This document shows, piece after piece, positions 6,197-52,241 of a stretch of 64,000 bases of DNA. Source of the stretch: Pseudanabaena sp. ABRG5-3 (GTDB taxonomy: Bacteria > Cyanobacteriota > Cyanobacteriia > Pseudanabaenales > Pseudanabaenaceae); the NCBI RefSeq assembly GCF_003967015.1, contig NZ_AP017562.1:1-64000 (forward strand), read 5' to 3'. The notes below the pieces were generated by a model, which was not told the DNA's origin, searched no databases, and saw only the letters and a program-made list of their open reading frames with translations. The stretch's first letter is position 1, and every line of letters starts with the position of its first letter. A program made the translations under genes and the position numbers.

Positions 6197-6886
6197 ATGA
6201 GAATTTTGCTAGTTGAAGATGAAGAGGATCTTGGTAAGGCTCTACAACGGAGCTTGAAGCAAGAAAAATATATTGTTGACTGGGTGCAAGACGGTACGGA
6301 AGCATGGAGATATCTTACAAGTCCTGAAGTAGATTATGTGCTGGCAATTGTAGATTGGATGTTGCCAAGTTTATCAGGACTGGAAATATGTAAGCGCTTG
6401 AGATCGCAGGGTAATTCGCTGCCAGTGTTAATGTTGACAGCGAAAGATCGGATTGAAGATCGGGTGATGGGTTTAGATTCAGGAGCGGATGATTATCTCG
6501 TTAAGCCGTTTGGGATGGTTGAACTGATGGCACGGCTGAGAGCGTTGCTACGGAGACCGACTCAAGTTCAGTCACAAATCTTACAGGTGGGAAATTTGAT
6601 TCTTGATTATGGGAAGTCAACAATCGTAATTGCGAATCAGAGTGTGATCGCTGAAGGGATTATGCTGACAACTAAAGAATTTCAATTATTAGAATACTTT
6701 ATGCAACATCCCAATCAGATTCTTACTCGTGACCAGATTATGAATCGACTATGGGAATTTCAAGCAGAACCTGCTAGTAACGTCGTTGCAGCACAGATTC
6801 GTCTGTTACGAAAGAAATTAGCAGAATATAGTTGTGATATTGAGATTGAGACAATCTATGGTTGGGGATATCGCTTGAATTCATGA
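6197..6886 (+). CDS. OmpR-family response regulator (RppA/NrsR/CopR type)
   Basis: This 229-residue regulator has a receiver domain with the acidic pocket VEDEED (residues 6-11), phosphoacceptor Asp53 (IVDWMLPS), MLTAKD and the conserved lysine in LVKPFG. A winged-helix DNA-binding domain follows (about 128-229; TTKEFQLLEYFMQHPNQILTRDQI is split here as TTKEFQLLEY and ILTRDQIMNRLW). The gene overlaps the downstream kinase gene by four bases (ATGA), so the two are translationally coupled. The closest remembered relatives are the cyanobacterial RppA/NrsR and CopR regulators, which activate metal-efflux genes. It is probably one of the proteins that reads the TTTCAT direct repeats in this window. 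Confidence 0.9.
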   Translation: MRILLVEDEEDLGKALQRSLKQEKYIVDWVQDGTEAWRYLTSPEVDYVLAIVDWMLPSLSGLEICKRLRSQGNSLPVLMLTAKDRIEDRVMGLDSGADDYLVKPFGMVELMARLRALLRRPTQVQSQILQVGNLILDYGKSTIVIANQSVIAEGIMLTTKEFQLLEYFMQHPNQILTRDQIMNRLWEFQAEPASNVVAAQIRLLRKKLAEYSCDIEIETIYGWGYRLNS

Positions 6887-8220
6887 ATCACAATAAAATC
6901 TTTTTTGGAGCGCGGTTACATCTTGCAGGCTGGTATGCAGGCGTGATGGGAATCATTTTGACTCTATCAGGAGTCGGTATTTATCAGGTGATGGCTCATG
7001 CTCATTGGCAAGCGGTTGATCGCGAGTTAGAGTCAGTAGCTGGAACATTGCATGATAGTTTAGAACCTCTACTACAACAAAGCGATCGCATCGATCCGAG
7101 CGTCCAACAAATTCTTCCTAATCTTTGCATTATCGGTGAGAAATGTGAGCAAGAATCTTCCACAAGACATATTATGGGAGCGATCCAACAAGATAGCTTC
7201 TATGCCTTATTTCTGAATCAGTCTGGAACGTTGATTGCCACAGTCGGAAAACCACCAATGGGAATTGTTCCTCAGATTGGACAAGAAGCTTTGCAAACAA
7301 TTGAGGATCGAGAGGGCAACCGCTATCATCAAATCTCACTTTTACTTAAAAATAATCGTGGGAAATCATGGGGATATCTGCAAGTAGGGCGATCGCTTGC
7401 TGACTATGACCATCATCTTGAACAATCAAAACTGATATTGATCATCAGTTTACCGATTGCTTTTCTGATTGTTAGCATTGCAAGTTGGTATTTAGCGGGG
7501 ATAGCAATGAAACCAGTTTATTTCTCTTATCGCCAAATCCAGCAATTTACGGCTGATGCTGCCCATGAACTACGGACTCCACTTGCAGCAATCCGTGCCA
7601 CAGTTGAATCTACTCTTAGTAGTGATTCAATTTCAGAACTAGAGTCAAGAGATATTCTCCAAACAATCAATCGCCAAACGGTGCGGCTTTCAGAATTGGT
7701 TCAAGATTTACTTCTGCTGTCGCGGATGGACTTACAACTAATTACTTTACAAAAGCAGGTTTGCTGTTTGAATGAAATTGTTAGTGATTTAGTTGAAGAA
7801 GTCTCAGCACTTGCGATCCAGTCAGATATTGATCTAAAACTGAACTTTGCCCATGAATCTGCAATTTATGTCAATGGTAACCAAGATCAACTCTATAGAC
7901 TAATTCTTAATATTCTTATCAATGCGATTCATTACACTCCTGAGCAAGGCAAGGTTGATATATCTCTTGATCACATCGATCATCATGCGATTATCCAAAT
8001 TCATGATAATGGAATTGGTATAAGTTCCAGCGATTTACCCAACATCTTTGATCGCTTCTATCGAGTAAGTAACGATCGCTCTCGTAAAAAAGGTGGATCG
8101 GGACTAGGACTGGCGATTGCAATGGCGATCGCTAAAGCTCATGGAGGGGATATTCAAGTCAAAAGTGAGTTTGGAGAAGGTAGTACATTTATAATTAAGA
8201 TCCCTTCTACTTTTTGTTAG
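6883..8220 (+). CDS. Membrane sensor histidine kinase (RppB/NrsS/CopS type)
   Basis: The start is taken at the ATG overlapping the regulator stop, giving 445 residues. The first membrane helix (about 14-36, WYAGVMGIILTLSGVGIYQV) is followed by a periplasmic domain of about 150 residues with GTLHDSLEP and a cysteine pair in NLCIIGEKCEQ. A second helix (about 188-212) follows. The kinase core has the H-box AAHELRTPLAA, the N-box NILINAIHYTP and G-boxes DNGIGIS and GGSGLGLAIA. Members of this family sense nickel, copper or redox state at the periplasmic face. The cysteine pair, conserved in the paralogue at 16880-18250, may contribute to metal binding or form a disulphide; that is inference. Confidence 0.9.
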   Translation: MNHNKIFFGARLHLAGWYAGVMGIILTLSGVGIYQVMAHAHWQAVDRELESVAGTLHDSLEPLLQQSDRIDPSVQQILPNLCIIGEKCEQESSTRHIMGAIQQDSFYALFLNQSGTLIATVGKPPMGIVPQIGQEALQTIEDREGNRYHQISLLLKNNRGKSWGYLQVGRSLADYDHHLEQSKLILIISLPIAFLIVSIASWYLAGIAMKPVYFSYRQIQQFTADAAHELRTPLAAIRATVESTLSSDSISELESRDILQTINRQTVRLSELVQDLLLLSRMDLQLITLQKQVCCLNEIVSDLVEEVSALAIQSDIDLKLNFAHESAIYVNGNQDQLYRLILNILINAIHYTPEQGKVDISLDHIDHHAIIQIHDNGIGISSSDLPNIFDRFYRVSNDRSRKKGGSGLGLAIAMAIAKAHGGDIQVKSEFGEGSTFIIKIPSTFC

Positions 8221-8224
8221 AGCA

Positions 8225-8241
8225 TTTCACACCTATTTCAT
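8225..8241 (+). promoter_or_regulatory. TTTCAC-N5-TTTCAT direct repeat before the adaptor gene
   Basis: The two hexamers are 11 bp apart and lie immediately after the kinase stop codon, 69 bases before the adaptor start. They fit a second, internal promoter for the adaptor under the same regulator. Confidence 0.55.
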
Positions 8242-8309
8242 TTTGTTGTGAGATGCTTGGTACAAAAGTAACTTCGATAAATTTTGAGTGTAAAAATTAG
8301 ATTAAGCAA

Positions 8310-9866
8310 ATGAGAATATCTCCAAGACTTCGCGCTCCCATTCTTAAAGTACTTCTTAGTTTGATTTTGCTATCTAATCCTGCGATCGCCCTTGCTCATG
8401 CGGGACATGGCGATGAATTTAAAGGGACTAATACAACTGAAATTACGGGAATTTCAGTAGATGATGATGTTGCCAAGTCGTTGGGAATTAAAGTAGAAAC
8501 TGTGAAGATACAGCCCCTAAAATTTGGTATGCAAACTACAGGACAAATAGAGACTTTACCGAACCAACAAGTAAAAGTGACCACTCCGATCAAAGGAACA
8601 ATTGTTAATTTGCTAGTAGAGCCGGGGGCTTTAGTTCAGGCAGGTCAACCTGTGGCGATTCTATCTAGTCCAGAATTAGCTGATTTACGAGTTGGTGCGC
8701 TAGAGAAACAGGCAGAAGCAAGTGGCAACATTCTCAATGCTGAATCAAATTTACGTTTAGCTCGACAAAATCTTGAACGTCAGAAGCTACTGGTTGAAGC
8801 AGATATCCGTCAGGCTCAGACTGAATTAAATTTAGATAAGGAGCGTTATGAGCGCGATAAAGAATTATTAGAGAAAGGTGCGATCGCCCGACGACAGTTA
8901 CAAGAGTCAGAAGCAAAATTTGCTGCTGCAAGAGCCGCATTAACTAAGGCAGAAAGTCGCTTACCTTTGCTAGAAGCACAAGCACAACTAGAAAGAGCAG
9001 AAGCTGATGTCCAAGTATCTTCGGTTAAAGTCGATCTCAGTACAGCAACTTACTCGGCGCGTTTGAATCAGTTAGAGGCTAGTGCAAACTCTAATGGCAC
9101 GATTACGATCGCTGCACCAATTGACGGAGTTGTCAGTGATCGCGAAGCTACTGTTGGTGAATCAGTTGAAGAGGCGGGTAAACCGCTAATGACGATTGTA
9201 AATGATGAAAGAGTTCTGGCTAGTGCAAATATTTATGAGAAAGATATTAGCAAAATTCGTATTGGTCAACCTGTGCAGGTGAAAATCGCAGGACAGCCAT
9301 CGACTACGGTTTTTCAAGGTAAGGTGACAGTGATTGGTTCTACTGTAGAAGGACAAAGCCGTATTGTTCCCGTAAAAGCTGAGATTGGTAATGTGAAGGG
9401 ACAGTTAAAAGCAGGGATGTTTACCAATATCGAAATCCTCACAGATAGTGTGTCTATGCCAATCTTAGCGATTCCTACTGCTTCAGTGATAGAAGCAAAT
9501 GGTAAGCAGTTAGTATTTGTACAAAATGGTAAGTCCTATCAGCCAGTTGATGTAACTTTGGGAAGGACTTCGGGGGATTTAGTGGAAGTTACAAGCGGAT
9601 TGTTTGAAGGCGATCGCATTGTTACTCAGCGTGCTAATCAGCTATATGCTCAATCTTTGCGTGGAGATAATAAGCCCAAGGATGATCATAGTAATGCTAT
9701 AAAACCTGATGTATCTATCCAAAACAACTGGTGGCTGATGCTTCTAGTAGGAGGTGTTGGCGGCGGCGCAATTGTGGCGATCGCTTTTTGGTTGGGAAGG
9801 CGATCAGGTACTAAAATGGTGATTTTGCGGGAGCCTTCTACTACAAGTGATCGCATCGATAGATAG
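8310..9866 (+). CDS. Periplasmic adaptor (membrane fusion protein) of an RND metal-efflux system, CzcB/NrsB/CusB-like
   Basis: The 518-residue protein has an N-terminal signal (LKVLLSLILLSNPAIALAHA) followed by a His-containing AHAGHGDEF. A barrel-sandwich half-motif (TPIKGTIVNLLVEPGALVQ), a long helical hairpin (about 125-255) rich in Glu, Arg and Ala, the returning half (IAAPIDGVVSDREATVGE) and beta-barrel and membrane-proximal domains follow. An unusual C-terminal helix (about 470-492) ends in WLGRRSGTKMVILREPS. Such adaptors link an inner-membrane RND pump to an outer-membrane channel. No pump gene follows directly, so it probably works with the RND proteins encoded at 12196 or 34496. Part of its 3' end is duplicated at 31660-31752. 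Confidence 0.88.
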   Translation: MRISPRLRAPILKVLLSLILLSNPAIALAHAGHGDEFKGTNTTEITGISVDDDVAKSLGIKVETVKIQPLKFGMQTTGQIETLPNQQVKVTTPIKGTIVNLLVEPGALVQAGQPVAILSSPELADLRVGALEKQAEASGNILNAESNLRLARQNLERQKLLVEADIRQAQTELNLDKERYERDKELLEKGAIARRQLQESEAKFAAARAALTKAESRLPLLEAQAQLERAEADVQVSSVKVDLSTATYSARLNQLEASANSNGTITIAAPIDGVVSDREATVGESVEEAGKPLMTIVNDERVLASANIYEKDISKIRIGQPVQVKIAGQPSTTVFQGKVTVIGSTVEGQSRIVPVKAEIGNVKGQLKAGMFTNIEILTDSVSMPILAIPTASVIEANGKQLVFVQNGKSYQPVDVTLGRTSGDLVEVTSGLFEGDRIVTQRANQLYAQSLRGDNKPKDDHSNAIKPDVSIQNNWWLMLLVGGVGGGAIVAIAFWLGRRSGTKMVILREPSTTSDRIDR

Positions 9867-9910: not shown

Positions 9911-11305
9911 CTAATGACTGTGTAGGTGATGAATATCAGTGTAGTGAGCATGACGATGGTTTATTTGCAGATGCTCATGGGTGTGAGTGTGTGGTTCGGT
10001 TAGCAATATGACTTCAGGATGATCGTGTTGATGGTGTTGATCGTGAGTATGCTCGTGTTCATGCCAGAGATATTCATGCTGATGTTCATGGGTTTTAGGA
10101 GCCAGCAATACCTGAACTACTGTGAGAAGGGTAAACCCGATCAAGCTTCCGTAAAGAAATGACGTATTGCCTTGACTTCCCAACCAACCTGCAATGGGAT
10201 AGGAAACTGCCCACCATAGATGACTCCAAGCAAAATGTGCACCATAGACTCGTCCCTGAAAGTTAGAAGGAATCTGATCGGCGATTAAAGTCTGGGTAGG
10301 GAGATTTACTAGAACCTGTCCCATTCCTGCGATCGCCCAAAGTAGCATTAGTGGTACTAAACCAACATAATTTGCAGGTAAAATTGCGAAAGTAATCACA
10401 ACTGCACCAAACAGAATTAAAACTGTACGTTCCCATTTCTCTTTAATTGCTCCTACAGTTACCGCCGCTATGGTTGCCCCAATTCCAAAAGCAGCCATTA
10501 CCCAACCGTATTCAATGCTGCTCAGTTTGAGCGTTCCTTTGATGTAGCCTACGGTATTTACTAAAATTTGCGCTCCTGCAATCGATGCGACAAGTTGGAG
10601 AAGGAGTGCATAGCGAATAAAAGCATTAGCAAACAAGCGTGTTGTTCCCTCTTTCACATCACTAATAATTTTAGATATCTCTCCTTTTGTCGATTCTTCT
10701 AAGTTCTCATTTCGCTCTACTCTCAGTTGATTTGGAAGGGTAAAAATCAGAATCGCAGCGATCGCAAAAGAAATAGCATCTAAAAAGAATACCTGTCTTG
10801 CCCCAATCCATGCCGACACACTGCCAGCAATGCCAGGACCTAATACTCCTAGAAGTTGATAAGTTGCCGCAGAGAGAGCGATCGCTTGAGCATATTCACT
10901 TTTACCCGTGACTAGGGGGATCGTGGCTTGATAGGTAGGCGTAAAGAAGGCATTGAATACATTGAGCGCAAAGACTAGAACATAAATTTGCCAAACTGCA
11001 TTTACAAATGGCATGGTTCCCACAATCAGCATCCGCGCAGTGTGAGTGATAACGAGAATTAGTTTGCGATCTAGGCGATCGGCGATCGCACCTGCGATGG
11101 GGGAGAGAATCACAAAAGCCGTAACTCTCAAGGTCAAAGCCACAGAAAGAACTACGGCGCTATCTTTCCCTGCTAGTTCAAAAGCTAGTAGAGCTAATCC
11201 TAACCATGTTAGAGCATCACCAAATAAGCTGATAGTCTGAGCAGTGTAGAGTCTTGCAAAAGTTGAATTATTGAGACATCGTAATGATGAGGGAACCTGT
11301 GACAT
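9911..11305 (-). CDS. nrsD: MFS nickel/cobalt exporter with His-rich tail, NrsD/NreB-like
   Basis: The 464-residue protein has a 12-helix major-facilitator body, starting with FARLYTAQTISLFGDALTWL and with the GAIADRLDRKLI loop motif between helices 2 and 3. The last 60 residues contain more than 20 histidines (HEHEHTHDQHHQHDHP, HTHTHEHLQINHRHAHYTD). This architecture matches NrsD of the Synechocystis nickel-resistance operon and NreB, which expel Ni(II). The tail probably binds metal in the cytoplasm. It is convergent with the adaptor gene and follows the GH104-like gene on the same strand. A fragment of a second copy remains at 21398-21498. Nickel rather than cobalt is inferred from the family. 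Confidence 0.85.
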   Translation of the reverse strand: MSQVPSSLRCLNNSTFARLYTAQTISLFGDALTWLGLALLAFELAGKDSAVVLSVALTLRVTAFVILSPIAGAIADRLDRKLILVITHTARMLIVGTMPFVNAVWQIYVLVFALNVFNAFFTPTYQATIPLVTGKSEYAQAIALSAATYQLLGVLGPGIAGSVSAWIGARQVFFLDAISFAIAAILIFTLPNQLRVERNENLEESTKGEISKIISDVKEGTTRLFANAFIRYALLLQLVASIAGAQILVNTVGYIKGTLKLSSIEYGWVMAAFGIGATIAAVTVGAIKEKWERTVLILFGAVVITFAILPANYVGLVPLMLLWAIAGMGQVLVNLPTQTLIADQIPSNFQGRVYGAHFAWSHLWWAVSYPIAGWLGSQGNTSFLYGSLIGFTLLTVVQVLLAPKTHEHQHEYLWHEHEHTHDQHHQHDHPEVILLTEPHTHTHEHLQINHRHAHYTDIHHLHSH

Positions 11306-11343: not shown

Positions 11344-12084
11344 TTAGAAAGACTCAATTTTATTGATCATGTGAGACCCACTAATTTTACTCGTAGAGGC
11401 AAGTTCTTCAGCTAAAAACTTACGATAAAGCTTGGGTAAAAAAGGTGTCATCAAATTGTCTTCAAGCCCACTTCCTAGACTAGTCCAAACACCAGATAAC
11501 TCAATTAACGCATCTTCAACCCGATCTTTCTTGAGCAAAGTTAAAATATCCACATTCCATTGATGATGATCTTTAAGCCAGCGATAGACAACGATATCTT
11601 GGTACTCAGGCTCAAAGCTATAGGTTATGCCATTTGGGGTCTCAGATGGATTGGGATGATATTTAGAAGCTTTTTCGATCCAAGTAGAGGTAAGAAATTG
11701 ATACCTCCCAGAGGCGGTGGAGCATTTTCCTTTATTTACGTTAGTTTTAATCGGAATGCATTGATTAGGATGTTGACTTAAATCGTGAACATGATCTCCA
11801 CCATATAAAAGCGCGTAGGAGTTCTTACCACTGGACTCACTTGCAGAAATAGTTCTCATCAAAGCTCGAATATAGGGATCGCCATTAGACATGACTAGTG
11901 GCGGCACATCTTCAGCTACTTTTAGATAGTTAACGTGTCTTATGACGTTCTGGGCATTTTGGAGAAACCAGAGTAAGGCAAATAGGCTCAGAATTGAAGC
12001 GAAGTCCCAAATCTTTTGACTTCTACTGTATACCCTATCTTCGCTATCTTTATTTTGTTTTTGTTTTGAACGATAAAAGAACAT
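11344..12084 (-). CDS. Membrane-anchored lysozyme-like glycosidase (GH104, lambda-R-like)
   Basis: Starting at the ATG at 12084 gives 246 residues; a TTG start 14 codons upstream is also open. One N-terminal membrane helix (WDFASILSLFALLWFLQ) anchors a catalytic domain. That domain reads MRTISASESSGKNSY, YGGDHVHDLSQHP, CSTASGRYQFL and WIEKASKYHP, the typical order of the lambda endolysin family. The glutamate in SASES is the likely catalytic residue. The substrate would be peptidoglycan. In this setting it might make room in the wall for a trans-envelope pump, or it may simply be a passenger. It sits between nrsD and the RND gene on the same strand. Confidence 0.75.
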   Translation of the reverse strand: MFFYRSKQKQNKDSEDRVYSRSQKIWDFASILSLFALLWFLQNAQNVIRHVNYLKVAEDVPPLVMSNGDPYIRALMRTISASESSGKNSYALLYGGDHVHDLSQHPNQCIPIKTNVNKGKCSTASGRYQFLTSTWIEKASKYHPNPSETPNGITYSFEPEYQDIVVYRWLKDHHQWNVDILTLLKKDRVEDALIELSGVWTSLGSGLEDNLMTPFLPKLYRKFLAEELASTSKISGSHMINKIESF

Positions 12085-12134
12085 AGAGATAATTTTTAAA
12101 CAGTCACAATAGAATCTTAAAATCAAAAAAATTT

Positions 12135-12195: not shown

Positions 12196-15100
12196 TTATG
12201 ATTTAACTAGTACTTGTGGGTTCTCATTCACCTCGAATTGCTTCTCAATGCTTAAAGATTTTTGTTTAGGAACTAGCCACTTACCAAACTTGGCGTAGAT
12301 AGCAGGAATTACCAATAGGGTCAAAATCGTAGAGGTAATCAAGCCACCCAAAACCACGATCGCTAGAGGTTGTAAGATTTCATTGCCAGCGCTACTAGAG
12401 ATCGCCAAGGGCAGCATTCCTAAAGCGGATGTGAGTGCAGTCATCAAAATGGCATTAATCCGCTCCATAGAACCTTTAAAAATTACATCTTTAAGAGACA
12501 TTCCTTGGGCAAATTTATTGTTGTAGTTATCAACTAGCAACAAGCCATTACGCACAGCAACTCCAAACAGGGTAATGAAACCAATGAGGGAGGCAATGGA
12601 AATGACACCACCAGTAAGCGCGATGGAAATAATCCCACCAACTAAAGCTAGAGGTAAGTTGATCATGATGGCGATCGAAGCAGGGATAGACTTTACAGAG
12701 AAGAACATTAACACGGCGATCACGATCGCGGCGAGAATACTGAACACTAACAGATTATTAGTAGCTCGTTCCTCTGACTCAAACTGTCCGCCATATTGGA
12801 TAAAGTATCCATTAGGCAACTGCACTTTTTGCTGAATCTGAGCTTGAATATCTTTAACAACGCTATTGAGATCCCGACCAGCAACGTTGGTAGAAACTAC
12901 GATTAGCCGTGAAACATCTTCACGATTAATTACGTTTGCGCCCATACCGTAGCCAATTTGAGCAACCTCACCGAGCGAGATCGTTTGCCCTGTTGGTGTG
13001 CTAATGGGAATCGCACTAATGTCATCGAGGCTATTACGAGACGATTCTTGCAATAGGACTACAGTATCAACTAGCTGCTGATTTTCTGATAGTTGTGAAA
13101 CGACACGACCATTCAGAGCAGTTTCGACAACATTGGATATCTGTTCCATACTCAATCCATAGGTTGCTGCCGACGTGCGGTTGTACTGAATCTGGACTTG
13201 ACGGATTGGTAATTGCGGTTCTAGTTGTAAATCTACAAGCCCAGCAACAGGCTCGATCGCATCGCGTACTTGTTCACCGATGGTTCGCAGTTGGGCAAGG
13301 TCAGAGCCATAGATTTTGACCGCGATCGCACTTCTGACACCCGATAGCACTTCATCCATACGGTGCGAAATAAATCCACCAATATTCGGAGCCACGCCAG
13401 GTAATTTGTTGAAGGCTTCCCGCAATTGCTTGATGCTTTCTTCCCGATTTTTTAGGGCAGCATCGCTTAGTTCCACATCCACATGAGCCATACTTACGCC
13501 TGCACCATCTGCATCCCCGGGGGCGCGTCCTGCTCTCACTTGCACCCACTCATATAGTGGATTGCCCTTGAGTGAGTTGGATAGTGCCATACCTGCGCGA
13601 TTGGTCATATCTAGGGATACCCCAGGGAAAAGCACCATCGAGTTAACCATTGACTTTTCCCGAAATTCGGGCAGAAAAACTCGTCCGAGGGAGGGAACAA
13701 TCACACTTGTTGCAACTAGGGCGGCAAGGGCGAAACCGATAATAATCATCGGCGATCGCATCGACAAACTTAAAAATGGACGATACAACCGTTCTGCCCA
13801 ACGTGAAACAAAAGTACCTTCTTGTGGCAAGGTTTGGTCTGCCAATAAAATTGCACAAAGAGCAGGTGAAACTGTCATCGCAACTAGAGTCGAAGCTGCA
13901 ATTGACAGCAGATATGCTAATCCCATCGGCGCAAAAATGCGACCTTCAACACCCGTCAAACTAAAAATTGGGGCAAACACAACCACGATAATCACTGTGG
14001 AAAAGATCACTGCGAGACGAACTTCTACAGAAGTGTCATACACCACCTGAAAAGGATGTTTAGGATTGCCCTCCGCTTGATTGGTTCTCAGTCCACGATA
14101 GCAGTTTTCCATGTCCACGATCGAGTCATCGACAACCGAACCAATCGCCACAACTAAACCACCTAGGGTCATGGTGTTAATGCCTAAGCCAAAGGCTTTC
14201 ATTAGCATCAACCCAATCAAAAGTGATAAAGGAATGGCAGTTAGGGTAATTACGGCGGTGCGCCAGTTCATCAGAAATAGCAACATGATCACCGATACAA
14301 TCACGATGCCTTCGATCAGCGAACCACTGACATTCTTAATTGCAGCATCGATAAAGTTAGCTTGACGGAAAGTGCGAGCAACTTGGACATCGTCAGGAAA
14401 TGTCGTTTGCAAAGACTGCATTACCGCTTCTACCTCCTTGGTGACAGTGGGCGTATCCACATCAGGCTGCTTGTTAATCATCAGCACCACCGCAGGTTTA
14501 CCGTTAAAGCTGCCATCGCCACGCTTTAACGCTGTTCCCGTTTTAACTTCAGCGACATCTCTCAGCAGAATTGGTTTGCCATTATCAACCTTGACTACTG
14601 ATTGCTGTAAGTCTTGAATTGATTTGACTTTGCCAATACCGCGTACCAATAATTCCTGACCACCGCCAATCTGGAAGCCAGCAGGTGCGTTAGAATTTGC
14701 GCCTCTAGCTGCATCAGAAACTTCAGTCAGAGAAACATTCAGCGATCGCAATTTGGCAGGATTGACTAGCACCTGATTCTGGCGTTCATCACCACCATAA
14801 ATGGTCACCTGAGTCACTCCTGGGACGGACAAAATCTGGTTTCTCAGATTCCCCTCAACCAATTGGCGCAGATCCATTAGCGAAGTTTTGCCCTGACCAT
14901 TCACCGTAAAGGCATACTGCAAAATAGTTCCCAGTGGCGAAACTAAAGGCGAAATTTCTGGCGGATGTACCCCTTCAGGAAGCTGATTTGTCACCTGCTG
15001 AAGTCTTTCTGTTACTGATTGTCTGGCTCGATAAATATCCGCATTTTGATCAAATACCACATTCACCATCGACAGCCCCACCTTAGAGGATGATCGCACA

Positions 15101-15354
15101 ATCGTTACCCCTGGCAAGCCATTAACCGCACTTTCAATCGGGATTGTAATTTGTGACTCCACTTCATCGGGCGCAAGTCCAGAAGCTTCAGTGTGAATAT
15201 CGACTTGAGGCGGTGCAAATTCAGGAAATACATCCAGAGGCATCTGCGTTACAGTAAAGACTCCCCACAAGGTAATTAAAATCGCACAAACGACAATCAG
15301 CCATCGCTGCACGATTGAGCCTTTAAGAATCTGGTTCAAAATTGAGTTAGACAT
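12196..15354 (-). CDS. Heavy-metal-efflux RND pump (HME family, CzcA/CusA/NrsA-like)
   Basis: This 1052-residue protein has the full RND plan. An N-terminal helix is followed by QMPLDVFPEFAPPQVDIHTE, a large periplasmic loop, helices 2-6, a second loop (residues about 560-860) and helices 8-12 ending in LVIPAIYAKFGKW. Helix 4 contains AIGSVVDDSIVDMENCYR, with the paired acidic residues typical of metal-transporting RND proteins. It should use the proton gradient to expel divalent or monovalent metal from periplasm or cytoplasm. It starts six bases after the short adaptor gene and is almost certainly co-transcribed with it. The metal cannot be read from the sequence; nickel/cobalt or copper are likeliest. 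Confidence 0.92.
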   Translation of the reverse strand: MSNSILNQILKGSIVQRWLIVVCAILITLWGVFTVTQMPLDVFPEFAPPQVDIHTEASGLAPDEVESQITIPIESAVNGLPGVTIVRSSSKVGLSMVNVVFDQNADIYRARQSVTERLQQVTNQLPEGVHPPEISPLVSPLGTILQYAFTVNGQGKTSLMDLRQLVEGNLRNQILSVPGVTQVTIYGGDERQNQVLVNPAKLRSLNVSLTEVSDAARGANSNAPAGFQIGGGQELLVRGIGKVKSIQDLQQSVVKVDNGKPILLRDVAEVKTGTALKRGDGSFNGKPAVVLMINKQPDVDTPTVTKEVEAVMQSLQTTFPDDVQVARTFRQANFIDAAIKNVSGSLIEGIVIVSVIMLLFLMNWRTAVITLTAIPLSLLIGLMLMKAFGLGINTMTLGGLVVAIGSVVDDSIVDMENCYRGLRTNQAEGNPKHPFQVVYDTSVEVRLAVIFSTVIIVVVFAPIFSLTGVEGRIFAPMGLAYLLSIAASTLVAMTVSPALCAILLADQTLPQEGTFVSRWAERLYRPFLSLSMRSPMIIIGFALAALVATSVIVPSLGRVFLPEFREKSMVNSMVLFPGVSLDMTNRAGMALSNSLKGNPLYEWVQVRAGRAPGDADGAGVSMAHVDVELSDAALKNREESIKQLREAFNKLPGVAPNIGGFISHRMDEVLSGVRSAIAVKIYGSDLAQLRTIGEQVRDAIEPVAGLVDLQLEPQLPIRQVQIQYNRTSAATYGLSMEQISNVVETALNGRVVSQLSENQQLVDTVVLLQESSRNSLDDISAIPISTPTGQTISLGEVAQIGYGMGANVINREDVSRLIVVSTNVAGRDLNSVVKDIQAQIQQKVQLPNGYFIQYGGQFESEERATNNLLVFSILAAIVIAVLMFFSVKSIPASIAIMINLPLALVGGIISIALTGGVISIASLIGFITLFGVAVRNGLLLVDNYNNKFAQGMSLKDVIFKGSMERINAILMTALTSALGMLPLAISSSAGNEILQPLAIVVLGGLITSTILTLLVIPAIYAKFGKWLVPKQKSLSIEKQFEVNENPQVLVKS

Positions 15355-15359
15355 CGAGC

Positions 15360-16049
15360 TTAAACGTCTCCCTGATTTTTAGAACGAGAGTTAAGCTTTA
15401 GTTTTTTGCGGCTGCTTTGACGATTTTTGAGTAGAAAAATTCCACCACCGATCAATGCCAACGCGCTACCGCCAACAACTACACCACCAACTAGCAAGTT
15501 GCTTTCTTGCGACAATACACCTTGATCACTGTGAGCAATTCCTTTAACGTGGGCTTGATTATGTTCTGCTGTACTTCGGGGAGTGGCGATCGCGGTTGCA
15601 ACTGCATTAGGACTAGCTACTGTACTGGGACTAGCTGGATCGGCTTTCTGAGTTTTGCGAGATTGGGCATAGAGAGACAAACTACCCTGAGTCACCAGTT
15701 TTTCGCCTACTGATAGACCATCAATAACTTCAATATTTTCTCCCTGAGTCTTACCAGTCTTGACTTCCACTGGCTCATAGAAGTTTTGGTACTGTACAAA
15801 TACAAGTTGTTTACCATCGGCTTCAACCAAAGATGTTACTGGAACCATCACCCCTGCGGCACTTTTTGCAGTTTGAGTGATCGGTGTAACAATAATCCCA
15901 AACTGTTGGTCGGTTTCGGAATTTATTTGTACGCGCTGAATCTTGCCTTTAGACTGAAATTCATCGCCATGTCCAACATGGGCAAAGACAGGGCTGGAAA
16001 CAGCTAAAATTCCTGCTAGGACAGCACTAACTAATGGCAATTTTTTCAT
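15360..16049 (-). CDS. Short adaptor: membrane-fusion protein lacking hairpin and lipoyl domains
   Basis: The 229-residue protein starts with a signal peptide and HVGHGDEF, the same mature N-terminus as the adaptor at 8310. It then jumps from INSETDQQFGIIVTP straight to VMVPVTSLVEADGKQLVFVQ, which aligns with residues near 390 of the full adaptor. The helical hairpin, the barrel-sandwich and most of the beta barrel are absent. The membrane-proximal part, a Ser/Pro/Ala linker and a C-terminal helix (NLLVGGVVVGGSALALIGGGIFLL) with a basic tail remain. The frame is intact, GAGGAT precedes the ATG, and it is coupled to an RND gene, so it looks selected rather than decaying. It may be an accessory metal-binding or pump-contact subunit. 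Confidence 0.8.
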   Translation of the reverse strand: MKKLPLVSAVLAGILAVSSPVFAHVGHGDEFQSKGKIQRVQINSETDQQFGIIVTPITQTAKSAAGVMVPVTSLVEADGKQLVFVQYQNFYEPVEVKTGKTQGENIEVIDGLSVGEKLVTQGSLSLYAQSRKTQKADPASPSTVASPNAVATAIATPRSTAEHNQAHVKGIAHSDQGVLSQESNLLVGGVVVGGSALALIGGGIFLLKNRQSSRKKLKLNSRSKNQGDV

Positions 16050-16126: not shown

Positions 16127-16175
16127 TGCTAATTGTTTCGCTACAATCAAGCTCGTGATTAATTTACCTAGATCC

Positions 16176-16883
16176 ATGCGAATTTTGCTTGTAGAAGATG
16201 AAATAGACTTAGGAACAGCGATTAAGCAGGTTTTGATTTGCGAAAAATATGTAGTGGATTGGGTAACTGATGGCGCTCAGGCTTGGTACTATCTCGAAAA
16301 TCAATGGACAGACTATTCTGTGGCAATTTTTGATTTACTCCTGCCCAAACTATCAGGGCTTGAGCTATGTAAAAAACTGCGATCACAACAAAATCCATTG
16401 CCCGTACTTATGCTCACGGCTCTAGGACAGCCCGAAAATCGGATCGCAGGGCTAGATGCAGGAGCTGATGACTATTTGGTTAAACCCTTTGTGATGGAAG
16501 AACTTTTGGCAAGGTTACGCGCATTGCAAAGGCGATCGCCAAATTTGCAACCACAAATTCTCACCATCGGCAAATTTTCTCTGGATTATGCCAATAATGC
16601 ACTACTAGTAATGGAAGATGATCAAACATCACAGGTTATTCCCTTAACAATCAAGGAATTTCAGATTCTCACTTACCTCATGCAAAATGCTGATCGCATT
16701 ATTTCAGGCAGCAAAATTCGCAATCAACTTTGGGATCTCAATGAAGAGCCAATTAGTAATGTGGTTGCGGCGCAAATGCGTTTATTACGTCGTAAATTAT
16801 CAAGCTATGGCTGTGAATGTCCGATTGAAACGATTCCCAGTCAAGGCTATCGGTTTAATACGCAGTTCAATACACAGTCATGA
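16176..16883 (+). CDS. OmpR-family response regulator, second RppA/NrsR-type copy
   Basis: The start was set at the ATG that gives MRILLVEDEIDLG, matching its paralogue; a GTG seven codons upstream at 16155 is also open. The 235-residue protein has phosphoacceptor Asp53 (IFDLLLPKLSG), MLTALG, LVKPFVMEE and a C-terminal winged helix (LTIKEFQILTYLM, SNVVAAQMRLLRRKL). It is clearly homologous to the regulator at 6197. It overlaps the kinase gene by four bases (ATGA). Its divergent neighbours are the short adaptor and RND genes, the likely targets. Confidence 0.9.
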   Translation: MRILLVEDEIDLGTAIKQVLICEKYVVDWVTDGAQAWYYLENQWTDYSVAIFDLLLPKLSGLELCKKLRSQQNPLPVLMLTALGQPENRIAGLDAGADDYLVKPFVMEELLARLRALQRRSPNLQPQILTIGKFSLDYANNALLVMEDDQTSQVIPLTIKEFQILTYLMQNADRIISGSKIRNQLWDLNEEPISNVVAAQMRLLRRKLSSYGCECPIETIPSQGYRFNTQFNTQS

Positions 16884-18250
16884 ATACTTCCCAATTGTTT
16901 CGCCGTAGTCGGACTCGTCTTGCTCTTTGGTATGCGGGAGTGATGGCGGTGATTTTGAGTCTATCGGGATTTAGTATGTATCGCTTTCTGATTCAATCTA
17001 ATTGGGAAGCGATGGAACGAGAAATGGAGTCGATCGCAGGAACGTTACATGACAGTTTAGAGCCAATGTTACCCGCTTCAGAAGAACCAACCGCAATTTT
17101 ACGGCGGATTTTGCCAGAACTTTGTTTAGTGGACCAGCCTTGTAATGTCAGTCCTACTCTAATTCAACGGCATACAACAGGAATTAGCGATCGCAGTACA
17201 TACTACATCCGTCTATTCAATTATCAAGGTAAACTTCTCGCCTTTTCGCCCAGTCAAATACTTAAAGAATTGCCTTCAAGTTTATCTGATCATCCTTGGC
17301 AAACTTTTCAAAGTGCTAATGGAGTCCGTTATCATCAGTTCACGATTATTCTCCATAGCGATGATGCCAAGAGTCATCAGATCCAGCAACATAAAGTCAA
17401 AACTTCTTGGGGCTATTTGCAAATTGGGCGCACCTTAGAACCCTTTGATGCAGAAGTAAAGCGAATCAAAATAATTTTGGCGATTGGATTGCCGATCGCT
17501 TTGATTTTAATCGCTATTTCTAGTTGGTGGCTATCTAAACTAGCAATGCAACCGATTTACAAATCCTATCAACAACAGCAACAGTTCACCGCCAATGCTG
17601 CCCATGAATTGCGATCGCCTCTAGCCAGTCTCCTAGCCACTGTCGAAGCAATCTTACGAGTACCACAAGCTAATCCCGAAGATACGCAAACTATGCTCTA
17701 CAAAGTAGAAAAGCAAGGAAGGCGCTTGAGTAATTTAATTGCTGACCTACTTCTGCTGTCTAGTCTTGAGCAAAATTCATCTCCAAAAAAATTTCGATCC
17801 TGCTGTTTAAATGATTTAGTAAGTGACTTGACCGAAGAAATGTCAGAACTTGCCACTGCTTCGGATATTCACTTAACTAGTCAAGTTCCTTCTATAGAAA
17901 TTTATGTACTTGGTAATGAATCACAACTTTATCGACTAGTATCAAATCTCATTGCTAATGCAATTCAATACAGTCCTGCTCAAGGATCTGTGCATATCAG
18001 TTTAGAAGTCCAAGACCACAATGCTGTTATCGCTGTGCAAGATACAGGGATTGGCATTCCCAAGTCTGAGCAAAATCGAATTTTTGATCGCTTCTATCGA
18101 GTCGATGGCGATCGCTCTCGCAAAACGGGAGGAACGGGTTTAGGCTTGGCGATCGCACAGGCGATCGTGCATCATCACCAAGGTCAAATTACTGTCAAAA
18201 GCGAGCAGGAACAAGGCAGTTTATTCATGATTCACTTACCTTGTCACTAA
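16880..18250 (+). CDS. Membrane sensor histidine kinase, second RppB/NrsS-type copy
   Basis: The 456-residue kinase has a first membrane helix (LALWYAGVMAVILSLSGFSM), then GTLHDSLEP and a periplasmic cysteine pair in ELCLVDQPCN at the same place as in the kinase at 6883. A second helix lies at about residues 196-218. The H-box is NAAHELRSPLAS, the N-box LIANAIQYSP, and the G-boxes DTGIGIP and GGTGLGLAIA are intact. It is translationally coupled to its regulator. About 260 bases of its 3' end are duplicated at 18741-18998, beyond ynfA. Confidence 0.9.
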   Translation: MNTSQLFRRSRTRLALWYAGVMAVILSLSGFSMYRFLIQSNWEAMEREMESIAGTLHDSLEPMLPASEEPTAILRRILPELCLVDQPCNVSPTLIQRHTTGISDRSTYYIRLFNYQGKLLAFSPSQILKELPSSLSDHPWQTFQSANGVRYHQFTIILHSDDAKSHQIQQHKVKTSWGYLQIGRTLEPFDAEVKRIKIILAIGLPIALILIAISSWWLSKLAMQPIYKSYQQQQQFTANAAHELRSPLASLLATVEAILRVPQANPEDTQTMLYKVEKQGRRLSNLIADLLLLSSLEQNSSPKKFRSCCLNDLVSDLTEEMSELATASDIHLTSQVPSIEIYVLGNESQLYRLVSNLIANAIQYSPAQGSVHISLEVQDHNAVIAVQDTGIGIPKSEQNRIFDRFYRVDGDRSRKTGGTGLGLAIAQAIVHHHQGQITVKSEQEQGSLFMIHLPCH

Positions 18251-34495: not shown

Positions 34496-37400
34496 ATGCT
34501 GAGTTCCATTATTAAATGGGCGATCGCCCGCCGTTGGTTGGTGATTGTCGGAGCGATGATTCTTAGTATTTGGATATTTCGTACGATTGTCCAAATGCCT
34601 TTGGACGTATTCCCTCCCTTTGCACCACCGCAAGTTGAAATTCAAACTGAAGCCGCAGGATTAGCACCCGAAGAAGTGGAATCACTGGTGACATTGCCCA
34701 TTGAGAGCGCGATTAATGGCACTGCTGGAGTGAGTGCGGTGCGGTCTTCGAGTGCTGCTAGTATCTCAGTGGTGCGCGTAATTTTTAATTGGGGAACTGA
34801 TATTTATCAAGCGAGACAGTTGGTAACAGAGCGATTACAGTCGGCTCGGAGTAAATTGCCAGCATCAGTGGAGACTCCACAAATTGCTCCTATTAGTTCG
34901 CCTATCGGCACAATTATTACCTATGCGTTTACATCGCAAAATAATGACTTAATGGAAACGCGGCGACTTGTGGATTGGCAAGTTACAAATCGCTTGTTAG
35001 CCGTACCAGGAGTAGCACAGGTAATTGTTTTTGGTGGTGATGTGCGGCAATATCAAGTGCTTGTTGCTCCTGAAAAGCTACAAGCCTTTAATGTCTCACT
35101 TCAGGATGTATCAGATGCCGTGGCGGCGGCGAATGTGAATGCTCCAGGGGGATATTTGATTACGCCCGATCGCGAAAAATTGATTCGCGGTATTGGGCGC
35201 ATTGAGGATATTGAAGATCTCAAACAATCAGTAATTAAGGCTCGTAATGGTGTGCCTGTAAGGATTAGCGATGTTGCTGATGTAAAAATTGGTGCGGCGG
35301 TGAAGCGTGGGGATGCCAGTGTCAACACCCAGAAGGCAGTAGTGGCAATCATCAATAAACAGCCGCAAGCGGATACGCCCACCGTCACCCGTGCCGTAGA
35401 AGCTGCGATGAATGAGTTGAAAGTAGGATTGCCCACAAGTATTCAAGTTGAAACTACTTTCCTTCAAGAGGCTTACATTGATGCATCGATTGAAAATGTC
35501 AAGGAAGCATTAGTCGAAGGCAGTATTATTGTGGCGCTGGTTTTAATTCCATTTTTGATGAATTGGCGAAACTTAGCCGTATGTTTAGCAGCTTTGCCTT
35601 TGTCTTTGTTGATTGGAGTGTTAGCGCTCAACTGGCTAGGACAAGGTTTAAATACAATGACCTTGGGTGGTTTAGCGGTGGCGATCGGCTCGGCAGTGGA
35701 TGATGCGATTGTTGATGCCGAGAATGTGTACCGATGCCTCCGCGAAAATAAGCATTCCGACAATCCTCGCCCCGTTTTAGAAGTGGTTTTTGATGGCTGT
35801 CAGGAAGTCCGCGATTCCGTATTTGGAGCCACGATTATCACGATTGTGGTGTTTTCACCGATCTTTGCGCTCACGGGTGTGGAAGGTAGCATTTTTATTC
35901 CGATGGGTTTGGGTTACTTAGCCGCAGTATTAGCATCTAGTTTTGTGGCGCTTACGGTTACGCCTGCTCTCTGTGCCATTTTGCTGCCTCACGGACATTT
36001 ACCCGAACGGGAACCTTGGGTAGCGCGATTTTTCAAAAAACTATATTTACCGCTCATCAAATTTGCGATGCGCCGATCGCAGATAATCATTGCGATCGCG
36101 GCGGCAAGCTTGCTCATATCAGCGATCGTTGTGCCATCCTTTGGGCGCATCTTTTTGCCAGAATTTCAGGAACAGTCTCTGGTTAATACCTTACTGCTCT
36201 ACCCCGGCTCATCCCTAGAAGCAACCAATAGCGCAGGCTCAGTCCTAGAGAATAAGCTAAAAGACAATCCCAACTTCCGCAATATTCAAGTGCGTTCGGG
36301 AAGAGCAGAAGGTGATGCCGATGCCGCAGGGGTGAACTTGGCGCATGTTGATGTGGAGTTGAGTGAAGTTGGCATGAAAGATCGAAAAGCAAGTATCGAT
36401 TTATTGCGCCAAGAGTTTGGGAAGGTGATCGGTGCTGCGCCTAATGTGGGTGGATTTATTTCGCACCGCATGGATGAAGTGTTGTCAGGGGTCAGAAGTG
36501 CGATCGCTGTCAAAATATTTGGTGCAGATTTAGCGCAACTGCGGATACTTGGACAGCAGGTAAATGATGTGATGCGATCGGTTGAAGGTGTAGTCGATCT
36601 GCAACTTGAACCGCAGATTCCAGTGGAGCAAGTGCAGATTCAGTTTGATCGCATGGGGGCGGCAAGGTATGGATTAACTGTGGGTAAGCTTTCGGAAACC
36701 ATTGAAATAGCGCTGAATGGTCTAGTGGTTTCTCAAGTTTTAGAGCAGCAGCAAACTTTTGATCTAGTTGTGTGGCTCAAGCCTGAAGCCCGCAAGAGTA
36801 TAGATACCATCGGTAATTTAATGGTTGATACATCCGATGGTAATAAAATTCCCCTAGCTCAAGTAGCAAAGCTGATCGACGGGAAGGGAGCAAATACAAT
36901 TAATCGTGAGAATGTCTCTCGATTGCTGGTGGTCGCTGCCAATGCACAGGGGCGAGATTTGCGATCGGTGGTCAGTGATATTCAGGCAAAAGTCAAAGAG
37001 CAGATCCAAATCCCTACGGGTTACTACATCCAATATGCAGGACAATTTGAAGCTGAAGGAAGAGCATCTCAGAATATTTTGCTGTTTAGCGCGATCGCCT
37101 TTGTTGCCATCACCGTAATCATGTATCTTTCGGTGAAATCCATCGCATCCACAGTGATGATTATGATCAATCTACCTTTAGCCTTAGTAGGCGGCGTGAT
37201 TGCCGTAGCACTAACGGGAAGAGTTTTGTCGATCGCTTCATTAGTCGGATTTGTGACCTTGTTTGGAGTTGCTACTCGCAATGGTTTATTGTTAGTCGAT
37301 AACTACAACACCAAATTTGCATCGGGAATGCCCCTAAAAGATTTGCTGATTCAAGGCTCAATGGAACGACTTAACGCGATTCTGATGACTGCTTTCACTT

Positions 37401-37573
37401 CAGCATTAGGATTAGCACCATTAGTCGTAGCAGGTGGTGCGGGGAAGGAGTTATTACAACCATTATCAATTGTCGTTTTGGGGGGACTGTTCACATCTAC
37501 CGCCTTAACTTTGTTAGTATTACCAGCTTTGTACTCTCAATTTGGAAAGTACCTGATTCCCAAACCCAAGTAG
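34496..37573 (+). CDS. Heavy-metal-efflux RND pump, second copy (HME family)
   Basis: The 1025-residue protein is collinear with the pump at 12196: QMPLDVFPPFAPPQVEIQTE after helix 1, AIGSAVDDAIVDAENVYR in helix 4 and LVLPALYSQFGKY at the end. The acidic pair in helix 4 is kept. It should form a trimer in the inner membrane and expel metal ions by proton exchange. No adaptor gene is adjacent; only the adaptor remnant at 31660-31752 lies upstream, beyond inserted DNA. It probably borrows the adaptor encoded at 8310. A lipoprotein gene follows 60 bases downstream and is likely co-transcribed. A TTTCAT direct repeat lies in its promoter region. Confidence 0.92.
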   Translation: MLSSIIKWAIARRWLVIVGAMILSIWIFRTIVQMPLDVFPPFAPPQVEIQTEAAGLAPEEVESLVTLPIESAINGTAGVSAVRSSSAASISVVRVIFNWGTDIYQARQLVTERLQSARSKLPASVETPQIAPISSPIGTIITYAFTSQNNDLMETRRLVDWQVTNRLLAVPGVAQVIVFGGDVRQYQVLVAPEKLQAFNVSLQDVSDAVAAANVNAPGGYLITPDREKLIRGIGRIEDIEDLKQSVIKARNGVPVRISDVADVKIGAAVKRGDASVNTQKAVVAIINKQPQADTPTVTRAVEAAMNELKVGLPTSIQVETTFLQEAYIDASIENVKEALVEGSIIVALVLIPFLMNWRNLAVCLAALPLSLLIGVLALNWLGQGLNTMTLGGLAVAIGSAVDDAIVDAENVYRCLRENKHSDNPRPVLEVVFDGCQEVRDSVFGATIITIVVFSPIFALTGVEGSIFIPMGLGYLAAVLASSFVALTVTPALCAILLPHGHLPEREPWVARFFKKLYLPLIKFAMRRSQIIIAIAAASLLISAIVVPSFGRIFLPEFQEQSLVNTLLLYPGSSLEATNSAGSVLENKLKDNPNFRNIQVRSGRAEGDADAAGVNLAHVDVELSEVGMKDRKASIDLLRQEFGKVIGAAPNVGGFISHRMDEVLSGVRSAIAVKIFGADLAQLRILGQQVNDVMRSVEGVVDLQLEPQIPVEQVQIQFDRMGAARYGLTVGKLSETIEIALNGLVVSQVLEQQQTFDLVVWLKPEARKSIDTIGNLMVDTSDGNKIPLAQVAKLIDGKGANTINRENVSRLLVVAANAQGRDLRSVVSDIQAKVKEQIQIPTGYYIQYAGQFEAEGRASQNILLFSAIAFVAITVIMYLSVKSIASTVMIMINLPLALVGGVIAVALTGRVLSIASLVGFVTLFGVATRNGLLLVDNYNTKFASGMPLKDLLIQGSMERLNAILMTAFTSALGLAPLVVAGGAGKELLQPLSIVVLGGLFTSTALTLLVLPALYSQFGKYLIPKPK

Positions 37574-37633
37574 AATACGCAATACAAAGCGCCGTACATT
37601 CTATTCTTTTACATAAGGAAATCAAGAAAATCT

Positions 37634-38122
37634 ATGCAATTATTTCAACCGATTCTTCTCAGTTTGGCTAGTTTAGCTTTACTAGCAGCCTGTACTAACA
37701 GCACTCCAACTACAAGCTCAACACCTGCAACTACAGTAGCTAAAGTTGAGACAGCTAAAGCAACTTCTACGCCTAGCGCTCCAAAATCTGAAACTAAGCA
37801 TGGCGCTCCCCAAAAAGGAGGACAGGTGATTGAGTCGGGAGTCTATCATTTAGAGTTGGTTGTCGCACCTGAAGAGAATGGGATTCATTTGGATTTCTTT
37901 TTGCAAAAAGGTGACACCCATGAAGCAATTCCCGATGCTAAGGTAACGGCTCAAGTCCAGCTACCTGATGGCACTCAAAAGAATCTTGATCTAAAATACG
38001 ATGTCCCTGAAAAGCACTATACATTAGTGCTATCAGGTAAAGCGGTGGGCGAGTATAAAGTCGTGATTTTGTCAGATATTAATGGTGAAAAGGTAAACGG
38101 GCGATTTAACTTTAAGTTGTAG
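37634..38122 (+). CDS. Predicted lipoprotein following the RND pump
   Basis: The 162-residue protein has a lipoprotein signal ending LALLAAC (lipobox Cys20) and a Ser/Thr/Pro-rich linker to about residue 60. A beta-rich domain follows: KHGAPQKGGQVIESGVYHLELVVAPEENG in two parts, HLDFFLQKGD and KVVILSDINGEKVNG. This domain is common next to metal RND genes in cyanobacteria and resembles YtkA-like beta sandwiches. It might bind metal at the pump's periplasmic side through the histidines near residues 57 and 70. The function is not established. Confidence 0.75.
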   Translation: MQLFQPILLSLASLALLAACTNSTPTTSSTPATTVAKVETAKATSTPSAPKSETKHGAPQKGGQVIESGVYHLELVVAPEENGIHLDFFLQKGDTHEAIPDAKVTAQVQLPDGTQKNLDLKYDVPEKHYTLVLSGKAVGEYKVVILSDINGEKVNGRFNFKL

Positions 38123-38189
38123 TCACGTTCTTCTAAAAATAGAGATCAGGAAGGAGGAAATATCTTTCCCCTCTATTTCTTGATATCTA

Positions 38190-38219
38190 AAATCGAGCTA
38201 CCTTAAAATAGCTCGATTT
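38190..38219 (+). terminator. Hairpin overlapping the DUF305 promoter
   Basis: AAATCGAGCTA pairs perfectly with TAGCTCGATTT across eight bases, and the right arm enters the first TTTCAT hexamer. It may end the RND-lipoprotein transcript. Confidence 0.55.
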
Positions 38220-38233
38220 CATCTTGATTTCAT
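38217..38233 (+). promoter_or_regulatory. TTTCAT-N5-TTTCAT direct repeat before the DUF305 gene
   Basis: Exact hexamers lie 11 bp apart, followed after 10 bases by a TAAACT -10-like hexamer, and 43 bases before the chosen ATG. The same layout occurs at 5683-5699. Confidence 0.6.
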
Positions 38234-38276
38234 CATCTGGCTTTAAACTATTCAGTAACTAAGAAATTTGAGTTCT

Positions 38277-38996
38277 ATGAATTTCACTAAATTGAACATC
38301 CTATCTCACAGTTTGGGTCTAGTAGCAATTATCTCGATTGCAACTGGAGCTTTAGCAGCCTGTTCCACAACAACTCCAGAAACATCTGCTTCTACTTCTA
38401 CTGTTGCGATTAAACCTAGCTCTAAGCCTGCGGCTGAGACGGCAATGCCTAACATGGATAATACGCATAATATGAGCAATATGCATATGACAATGGATTT
38501 AGGACCAGCCGATGCTAATTTTGACCTTCGATTTATTGATGGTATGATTCCGCATCACAAAGGTGCAGTTGAAATGGCAAAAGAAGCTCAACAAAAATCA
38601 CAGCGTCCTGAAATTAAAAAACTAGCCGATGAGATCATTACCGCTCAAGCTAAAGAGATTACTGAACTACAGACTTGGCGTAAGCAATGGTATCCCAATG
38701 TTAGCAACAAGCCAATGGCACATAATGCTCAAATGGGACATATGATGGAGATGAGCGATGAACAAATGAAAGGCATGATGATGAGCCAAGACTTAGGGGC
38801 GAAAGATGCTGAATTTGATCTACGCTTTATCAATGCAATGATTCCCCATCATGAGAGTGCGGTGATAATGGCGAAAGATGCTTTAGCTAAGTCAACTCGT
38901 CCCGAAATCAAGAAGCTTGCACAGGATATTATTTCTTCTCAGCAAGCAGAAATCAAACAAATGCAAGAATGGAAGCAAGCTTGGTATAAAAAATAA
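38277..38996 (+). CDS. DUF305 periplasmic copper-binding protein, CopM-like
   Basis: The ATG at 38277 was preferred to a TTG three codons earlier. The 239-residue protein has a signal with lipobox-like ALAAC, a Met/His-rich linker (NMDNTHNMSNMHMTMD) and two DUF305 units. Each unit carries a paired-histidine motif, FIDGMIPHHKGAVEMA and FINAMIPHHESAVIMA, and each ends in a Trp-rich helix (WRKQWYP, WKQAWYKK). A second Met/His cluster (HNAQMGHMMEMSDEQMKGMM) joins them. The Synechocystis DUF305 protein CopM binds copper outside the cell membrane and is controlled by CopRS. A comparable role under the local regulators is likely. Confidence 0.88.
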   Translation: MNFTKLNILSHSLGLVAIISIATGALAACSTTTPETSASTSTVAIKPSSKPAAETAMPNMDNTHNMSNMHMTMDLGPADANFDLRFIDGMIPHHKGAVEMAKEAQQKSQRPEIKKLADEIITAQAKEITELQTWRKQWYPNVSNKPMAHNAQMGHMMEMSDEQMKGMMMSQDLGAKDAEFDLRFINAMIPHHESAVIMAKDALAKSTRPEIKKLAQDIISSQQAEIKQMQEWKQAWYKK

Positions 38997-43563: not shown

Positions 43564-44145
43564 ATGAAAACCTATCTAAGTAATCCTATGAGAATTACCC
43601 ATAGTCCCCACCGCAGCAACTTCCTCAACCAAATTCAAAATTCCCAGTTAGCCGCATTGACTGCTGCGATTGTGGGAATCGTCATCACCTTTACTTGCTC
43701 TAAAGGGATGTATCTCACGGCGCTACTAGCCTTGATTGGTTTGCTGATAGCCTTCCCAAAAGTATTGCTGATGCTCTATGGCAAATTCGAGCAAATGATT
43801 CGGCATTCCAAGTACAGTCCCGTTTTATTACTGGGCATCGCCATTGGCTTCCTGATTGGTTTACTGTTGATTTTTACAGTGGAGCCAGCCCAAGCCCAGT
43901 TTTTCAATAGAACTCAGACATGGATGACAGGTGCAATTCCTGGTATCGACACAGGCCTAGTTGCTTTGATTTTCAATGTGTTGCGAGCCTTGTTTGTAAT
44001 CTATCTGGGAATTGGACTAGTAAAAGTGATTCAATCAGCTAGAAACGATGATGATTGGCAGCAAATGGCGAGAACACCGCTAATTCTGGTTGTAACGGTG
44101 ACAATGGGCGACATTTTGGCTGGCATTATCACAGGTGCAGCCTAA
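43564..44145 (+). CDS. Candidate pilin-type subunit (VirB2/TrbC-like) of the transfer apparatus
   Basis: The 193-residue protein has two early hydrophobic segments and then FTVEPAQAQFFNR, which looks like a signal-peptidase site after AQA. The part after this site (about 83 residues) has two helices, TGLVALIFNVLRALFVIYLG and TPLILVVTVTMGDILAGIITG, split by a short polar loop. This is the layout of VirB2/TrbC pilins. The long N-terminal part is unusual. It is the first gene of a tightly packed operon and precedes VirB3- and VirB4-like genes, which is the standard order. The assignment rests on layout and position, not on sequence identity. Confidence 0.6.
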   Translation: MKTYLSNPMRITHSPHRSNFLNQIQNSQLAALTAAIVGIVITFTCSKGMYLTALLALIGLLIAFPKVLLMLYGKFEQMIRHSKYSPVLLLGIAIGFLIGLLLIFTVEPAQAQFFNRTQTWMTGAIPGIDTGLVALIFNVLRALFVIYLGIGLVKVIQSARNDDDWQQMARTPLILVVTVTMGDILAGIITGAA

Positions 44146-44149
44146 AGCT

Positions 44150-44470
44150 ATGGCAGAAGAGTATAAATTCCGTAAGGTCAATGCCATTCTGGGCGCAAGT
44201 CCCAAGATTGGTCCATTTCCCACTGAGTTAATCATTCCTTGGTCAATCATCAGTTTTACCCTGTTCATGATTTGCTACGTGGTTCTTAATCTGCCGTGGT
44301 TATGGGTATTGCTAATTGTGGCTTGGGGCAATGCGACATGGTGGATCTTGACAGGTTCAAAACCCTATCGATTTTTATCAAAATTTATCCCTGTGCCGCG
44401 ATGGACGCGCGGTGTTTATCAGTACAGAGGAATGCGTAAGCAGGAGGTCAGAAAGTATGCAGAGCGCTAG
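44150..44470 (+). CDS. VirB3-like inner-membrane protein
   Basis: The ATG at 44150, five bases after the upstream stop, gives 106 residues; a GTG at 44135 is also open. Two adjacent helices (LIIPWSIISFTLFMICYVVL and LPWLWVLLIVAWGNATWWIL) follow a short cytoplasmic N-terminus, and the C-terminus is basic. Size, topology and location directly before the VirB4-type ATPase gene fit VirB3. It overlaps the next gene by 14 bases. Confidence 0.6.
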   Translation: MAEEYKFRKVNAILGASPKIGPFPTELIIPWSIISFTLFMICYVVLNLPWLWVLLIVAWGNATWWILTGSKPYRFLSKFIPVPRWTRGVYQYRGMRKQEVRKYAER

Positions 44471-47204: not shown

Positions 47205-47238
47205 TTTCAAATCACTAGAAACTAATCCCCACACCGCC

Positions 47239-48204: not shown

Positions 48205-48215
48205 CGAGATAACCG

Positions 48216-49253: not shown

Positions 49254-49258
49254 TTCCC

Positions 49259-52239: not shown

Positions 52240-52241
52240 TT

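Follow-up and report, generated by a model that had tools for sequence, protein, structure and literature searches.

The gene at 15360-16049 (minus strand) of the window, by which we mean the whole 64,000-nucleotide stretch of DNA that was analyzed, encodes an NrsB-type adaptor of 229 residues that appears to be reduced to an N-terminal metal motif, a membrane-proximal domain (MPD), and a C-terminal transmembrane (TM) helix. The gene has been kept next to the same metal pump in many cyanobacteria, and its product therefore seems to be a functional pump subunit, though one that is unable to reach the outer membrane on its own. We put the probability at roughly 60% that it is a metal-presenting, pump-activating subunit without a conduit, a reading in which we infer docking, metal binding, activation, and nickel as the substrate.

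The open reading frame is intact, begins with ATG, and is preceded by a ribosome-binding site of the GAGGA type. Residues 1-23 (15981..16049; this and all further features of the protein lie on the minus strand) form a signal peptide with an AxA-type site, at which cleavage would occur just before His24; the residue at position -1 to this conserved His is Ala or Ser in 64 of 66 distinct relatives. The preliminary description had claimed a whole frame, a signal peptide, and a ribosome-binding site, all of which hold, and a coupling to the RND gene six bases away. The RND gene does lie directly downstream, but it starts at 15354, leaving a gap of 5 nt rather than 6. The mature protein would open with HVGHGDEF (residues 24-31, 15957..15980), a candidate metal site; in an alignment of 17 relatives H24 and G26-F31 are invariant, and the invariant columns number 40 in all, far above chance. 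The predicted MPD consists of an N-terminal strand and short helix (residues 36-62, 15864..15944), placed by the structural model and a contiguous match to 5a4g, and a C-terminal beta-meander (residues 65-134, 15648..15857), placed by BLASTP, TIGR00999 (E = 1.5e-12), the model, and a match to CusB and ZneB. A variable linker containing some His follows (residues 135-184, 15498..15647), recognized from the alignment and a dN/dS above that of the core, and then a TM segment assigned by hydropathy (residues 185-207, 15429..15497), which is found in 62 of the 66 distinct relatives and is followed by Lys or Arg in 61. Pfam places no HlyD or other adaptor domain (lipoyl, beta-barrel, or alpha-hairpin) in the short protein, and a match to SepZ (E = 0.023) was under its cut-off and was discarded. 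The NCBIfam matches (47 bits to TIGR00999 and 35 bits to TIGR01730, against cut-offs of 319 and 95) fall on the C-terminal ends of the adaptor models, so the short protein acts like part of an adaptor and not like a complete family member.

The two-ended resemblance to the 518-residue adaptor encoded at 8310..9866 (plus strand), together with the loss of about 320 residues in between, had been pointed out before and is borne out by BLASTP. Residues 69-130 align with adaptor residues 388-449 (52% identity over 62 residues, E = 1e-17), residues 22-54 align with adaptor residues 28-62 (AHVGHGDEF versus AHAGHGDEF, E = 4e-4), and the stretch of about 320 adaptor residues that separates these blocks has no counterpart in the short protein. 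An alignment to the whole 518-residue adaptor had set the short N-terminal strand on the barrel end; this placement was rejected, since both the fragments taken separately and the contiguous match to SilB favor the N-terminal one. Pfam finds clear HlyD_D23 and HlyD_3 matches in the full-length protein. Other genomes have one cluster that holds a full-adaptor gene, a CopA-like RND gene, a two-component pair, and FixH-like and DUF305 genes. Because the 518-residue adaptor is CopB-like and gene order elsewhere pairs it with the RND protein encoded at 34496, it is, as judged from sequence and gene order, a relative of the short protein that belongs to a cop system and not its parent copy. The RND tree places the 34496 protein with 100% support in the CopA clade, which comprises 18 CopA rows and G054, and the protein encoded from 12196 in a short-adaptor clade (95%); the tree of the MPD was built on 76 columns only. 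We note that the cop-type system of the window appears split: the CopB-like adaptor and RppAB genes lie at 6197-9866 and the remaining cop genes, encoding the CopA-like RND, FixH-like, and DUF305 proteins, at 34496-38996, 25 kb further on, past the nrs genes and other metal genes.

AlphaFold2 (AF2) gave no usable model of the whole 229-residue protein (pLDDT 37), but the core, residues 24-136, was modeled with a pLDDT of 80 and a pTM of 0.69 and is predicted to fold as the RND-docking MPD. In VIA-align, the core model superposes on CusB of the CusBA complex over 97 residues at 2.1 A (Z 12.9), and the matched CusB range, 80-393, takes in both chain ends around the missing middle; ZneB follows with Z 12.2. 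The first Foldseek match is 5a4g, described as the SilB N-terminal metal-binding site plus MPD, and the sequence-profile match to this entry is unbroken across the junction. No CusF chain is among the matches listed in the profile and structure searches, an absence that is not proof. CusB, ZneB, and SilB share the MPD fold, its N- plus C-terminal make-up, and the N-terminal metal site with the short protein, but they also have barrel, lipoyl, and hairpin modules, none of which the short protein retains, and it has a C-terminal TM helix in addition. The 5a4g construct, in which the metal site is joined to the MPD, has nearly the layout of the short protein, although it was designed and is not natural. 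Natural adaptors with a module missing have been described (PMC3807786, PMC4158417): BesA of Borrelia is without the hairpin only, and EmrA is without the MPD, the very domain that the short protein keeps.

On the evidence of gene order, the short gene opens a nickel operon of the nrsBACD type that is divergent from an NrsRS/RppAB two-component system, an identity that the preliminary description had not recognized and that we add here. Downstream on the minus strand lie the partner NrsA-type HME RND transporter (12196..15354, 1052 residues; a member of the CusA/CzcA family by TIGR00914, E = 6.7e-243, with ZneA and CusA as its best solved relatives), an NrsC-like gene (11344..12126, annotated as a glycoside hydrolase family member in relatives), and an NrsD-like MFS exporter with a His-rich C-terminus (9911..11305, MFS_1, E = 1e-36). 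On the plus strand are the NrsR/RppA-type response regulator (16155..16883, NF041734, E = 3e-113) and the NrsS/RppB-type histidine kinase (16880..18250, NF041735, E = 4e-206). The order nrsB-nrsA-nrsC-nrsD with divergent nrsRS recurs on two plasmids, pPg_05 of P. galeata and pSYLC of Synechocystis 6714, a synteny that also supports the NrsC- and NrsD-like assignments. Because the layout is that of nrsRS-nrsBACD, the short product is taken to be NrsB-type. The nrsBACD operon of Synechocystis PCC 6803 (slr0793-slr0796) is arranged in this order too and likewise has two-component genes running divergently, a likeness drawn through the layout and the 6714 homologue; the same short form occurs on pSYLC and in a further Synechocystis genome (L083). 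According to one account of Synechocystis (PMC4284471), nrsBACD confers nickel resistance, with nickel induction and a nickel-sensitive mutant reported, NrsD of strain 6803 has a histidine-rich C-terminus, and nrsBAC is described simply as an RND efflux system. NrsA and CopA of strain 6803 have been classed as HME5 RND proteins (PMC7060636). The passages of literature found, to which the original nrsBACD description of 2000 does not belong, make no mention of a shortened NrsB.

The short form next to RND genes was sought in relatives, a search proposed in the preliminary description, and was recovered from 65 of the 388 cyanobacterial genomes in the sample, representing 37 of 160 genera and many families of the class; every strong match in the phylum sample falls in this one class. 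Among the 67 short genes with enough flanking sequence, 64 have an RND gene directly downstream (median gap 6 nt), and of the three that do not, two are tandem copies that precede a second short gene. Viral contigs yielded no relatives. Matches on non-cyanobacterial plasmids were rejected as short forms, since those checked are longer adaptors; two annotated ones adjoin TolC genes.

We propose that the NrsB-type subunit is an adaptor reduced to its metal motif and MPD, with its own C-terminal helix anchoring it to the inner membrane. The exported protein would begin at His24 with HxGHGDEF and, once in the periplasm, bind Ni(II) or an ion like it. The same motif occurs in copper-system adaptors, so that alone it is no sign of nickel. 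The MPD, the transporter-recognition part of adaptors (PMC4446572), would dock on the periplasmic face of the neighboring NrsA trimer, and the ion would be handed over and/or the pump switched on, as the corresponding parts of CusB do for CusA. The CusB N-terminus alone has been reported to bind metal and confer partial resistance (PMC4446572). Because the barrel, lipoyl, and hairpin modules are gone, the short protein would provide no conduit to TolC. An exit conduit, where needed, would be the job of another adaptor, as may be the case in Synechococcus-like genomes with a short adaptor-RND-full adaptor operon; in other genomes the pump may work with no dedicated conduit.

A different assignment of roles, in which the RND trimer always operates together with a full adaptor made elsewhere, is in our estimate unlikely, though it is the strongest competitor. 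Of the two adaptor sites on each pump subunit, one would then be taken by the short protein and the other by the full adaptor, which would build the conduit. In favor of this assignment, the short-RND-full order is found in one operon at eight of the 11 loci (L092, L093, L094, L097, L149-L152) of the f2 genomes, small ones that are putatively Synechococcus-like, as judged from genome size. The full adaptor of these operons has an N-terminal TM segment and is without HxGHGDEF, and the operon arrangement suggests a division of labor between the two adaptors. A CopB-like full adaptor is also close by in the window (8310-9866), as it is in G004 and G012, and the docking domains of the RND protein are still present. 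TriABC, which requires two adaptors (PMC4446572, PMC8277102), is a precedent for such a pump; these are reported as two membrane fusion proteins, and neither is described as MPD-only in the literature found. Against this assignment, a full adaptor is absent from the neighborhood of most non-f2 loci, and at least ten non-f2 genomes with the short form (G028, G058, G064, G191, G208, G299, G303, G328, G347, and G386) have no strong match to a CopB-like full adaptor by profile. In six of these that were searched for RND genes (G028, G058, G299, G303, G347, and G386) NrsA is the only close HME-RND protein, and in G058 it is the only RND protein at E <= 1e-50, with no HME adaptor. Generic full-length adaptors are present in all genomes checked and could pair with NrsA in trans. 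The genome from which the window comes has one TolC-type outer-membrane factor gene, far from the nrs operon. With subdomain borders taken over from AcrB by alignment, the docking subdomain DC of the RND protein diverges 1.53-fold [1.23-1.90] relative to the rest of the protein in pumps with short adaptors and 0.95-fold [0.73-1.21] in those with full adaptors at matched divergence; subdomain DN has no excess divergence in the NrsA group. This rate signal is suggestive only, because the docking subdomains of f2 pumps with a full adaptor in the operon are fast as well and because the borders were carried over from AcrB.

We consider it improbable that the protein instead acts on its own in the periplasm, as a metal chaperone or as a co-sensor for the divergent NrsRS, keeping the MPD fold but not docking on the pump. 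The invariant N-terminal His motif and the position of the gene between nrsR and nrsA would suit such a role, but the tight linkage is to the RND gene (64 of 67), it persists at loci where no divergent RppA was found nearby (L086, L095, L096, L101, L106, L150, and L155), and the pump-docking domain is the most conserved part of the protein. Selection among homologues, which the preliminary description had named as a check, has not relaxed: pairwise dN/dS is 0.03-0.24 for the core and 0.05-0.12 for the RND protein, with the linker and tail looser, and on these values the core is under purifying selection. A decaying gene or one-strain internal deletion of a full adaptor, which the missing middle might bring to mind, is refuted by the occurrence of the same form across many families, by the core dN/dS, and by the start, signal peptide, and TM anchor that are intact in relatives. 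The earlier view of a functional mini-adaptor or metal-binding pump subunit, rather than a dead gene, gains support from the distribution, RND linkage, dN/dS, and predicted MPD fold. For the metal-presenting, pump-activating subunit that we favor, a broader generalization is tentative and in our judgment somewhat short of even odds: a conduit-free, two-part inner-membrane HME-RND class may be widespread in cyanobacteria, with the adaptor serving as a metal-sensing on-switch that was reduced at least twice. A candidate second reduction is a 208-residue short form in G054 (L099, 4762-8573), which lies beside an RND gene inside the CopA clade (97-100% support) and is by its own sequence closest to full adaptors (57% to that of the window) and not to the short family. 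An independent shortening of a CopB-type adaptor there is tentative because it is seen in one fragmented assembly and not in relatives.

Efflux-pump reviews present the adaptor as the connector of pump and outer-membrane channel, and the MPD is proposed to present cargo and couple energy (PMC4446572). A natural adaptor made of a metal tip and an MPD only would separate the switch role from the conduit role, and the activation of a metal RND pump without a conduit becomes directly testable. Being small, the short adaptor also lends itself to structural studies of how adaptor and pump make contact.

Several minor observations concern other copies and the surroundings of the gene. On Stanieria and Chondrocystis plasmids (L048 9553-9963, L049 9553-9963) two short adaptor genes stand in tandem, the first of which (136 residues) encodes the MPD alone, with neither linker nor TM helix. 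P. galeata has a second, chromosomal short adaptor-RND pair (L106 8942-9526), whose short protein is without a clear TM segment. In G028 (L102 10440-14823) the short adaptor is intact, and about 1.26 kb of additional sequence divides the RND gene behind it into two pieces. In the window, a 94-residue fragment at 18789-19073 matches the C-terminus of the histidine kinase encoded at 16880-18250 with 91% identity and is a duplicated 3' piece. Genes at 43564-59706 resemble, by eye, conjugation or type IV secretion parts and a topoisomerase, and this conjugation-like run suggests that the 152-kb contig is a plasmid.
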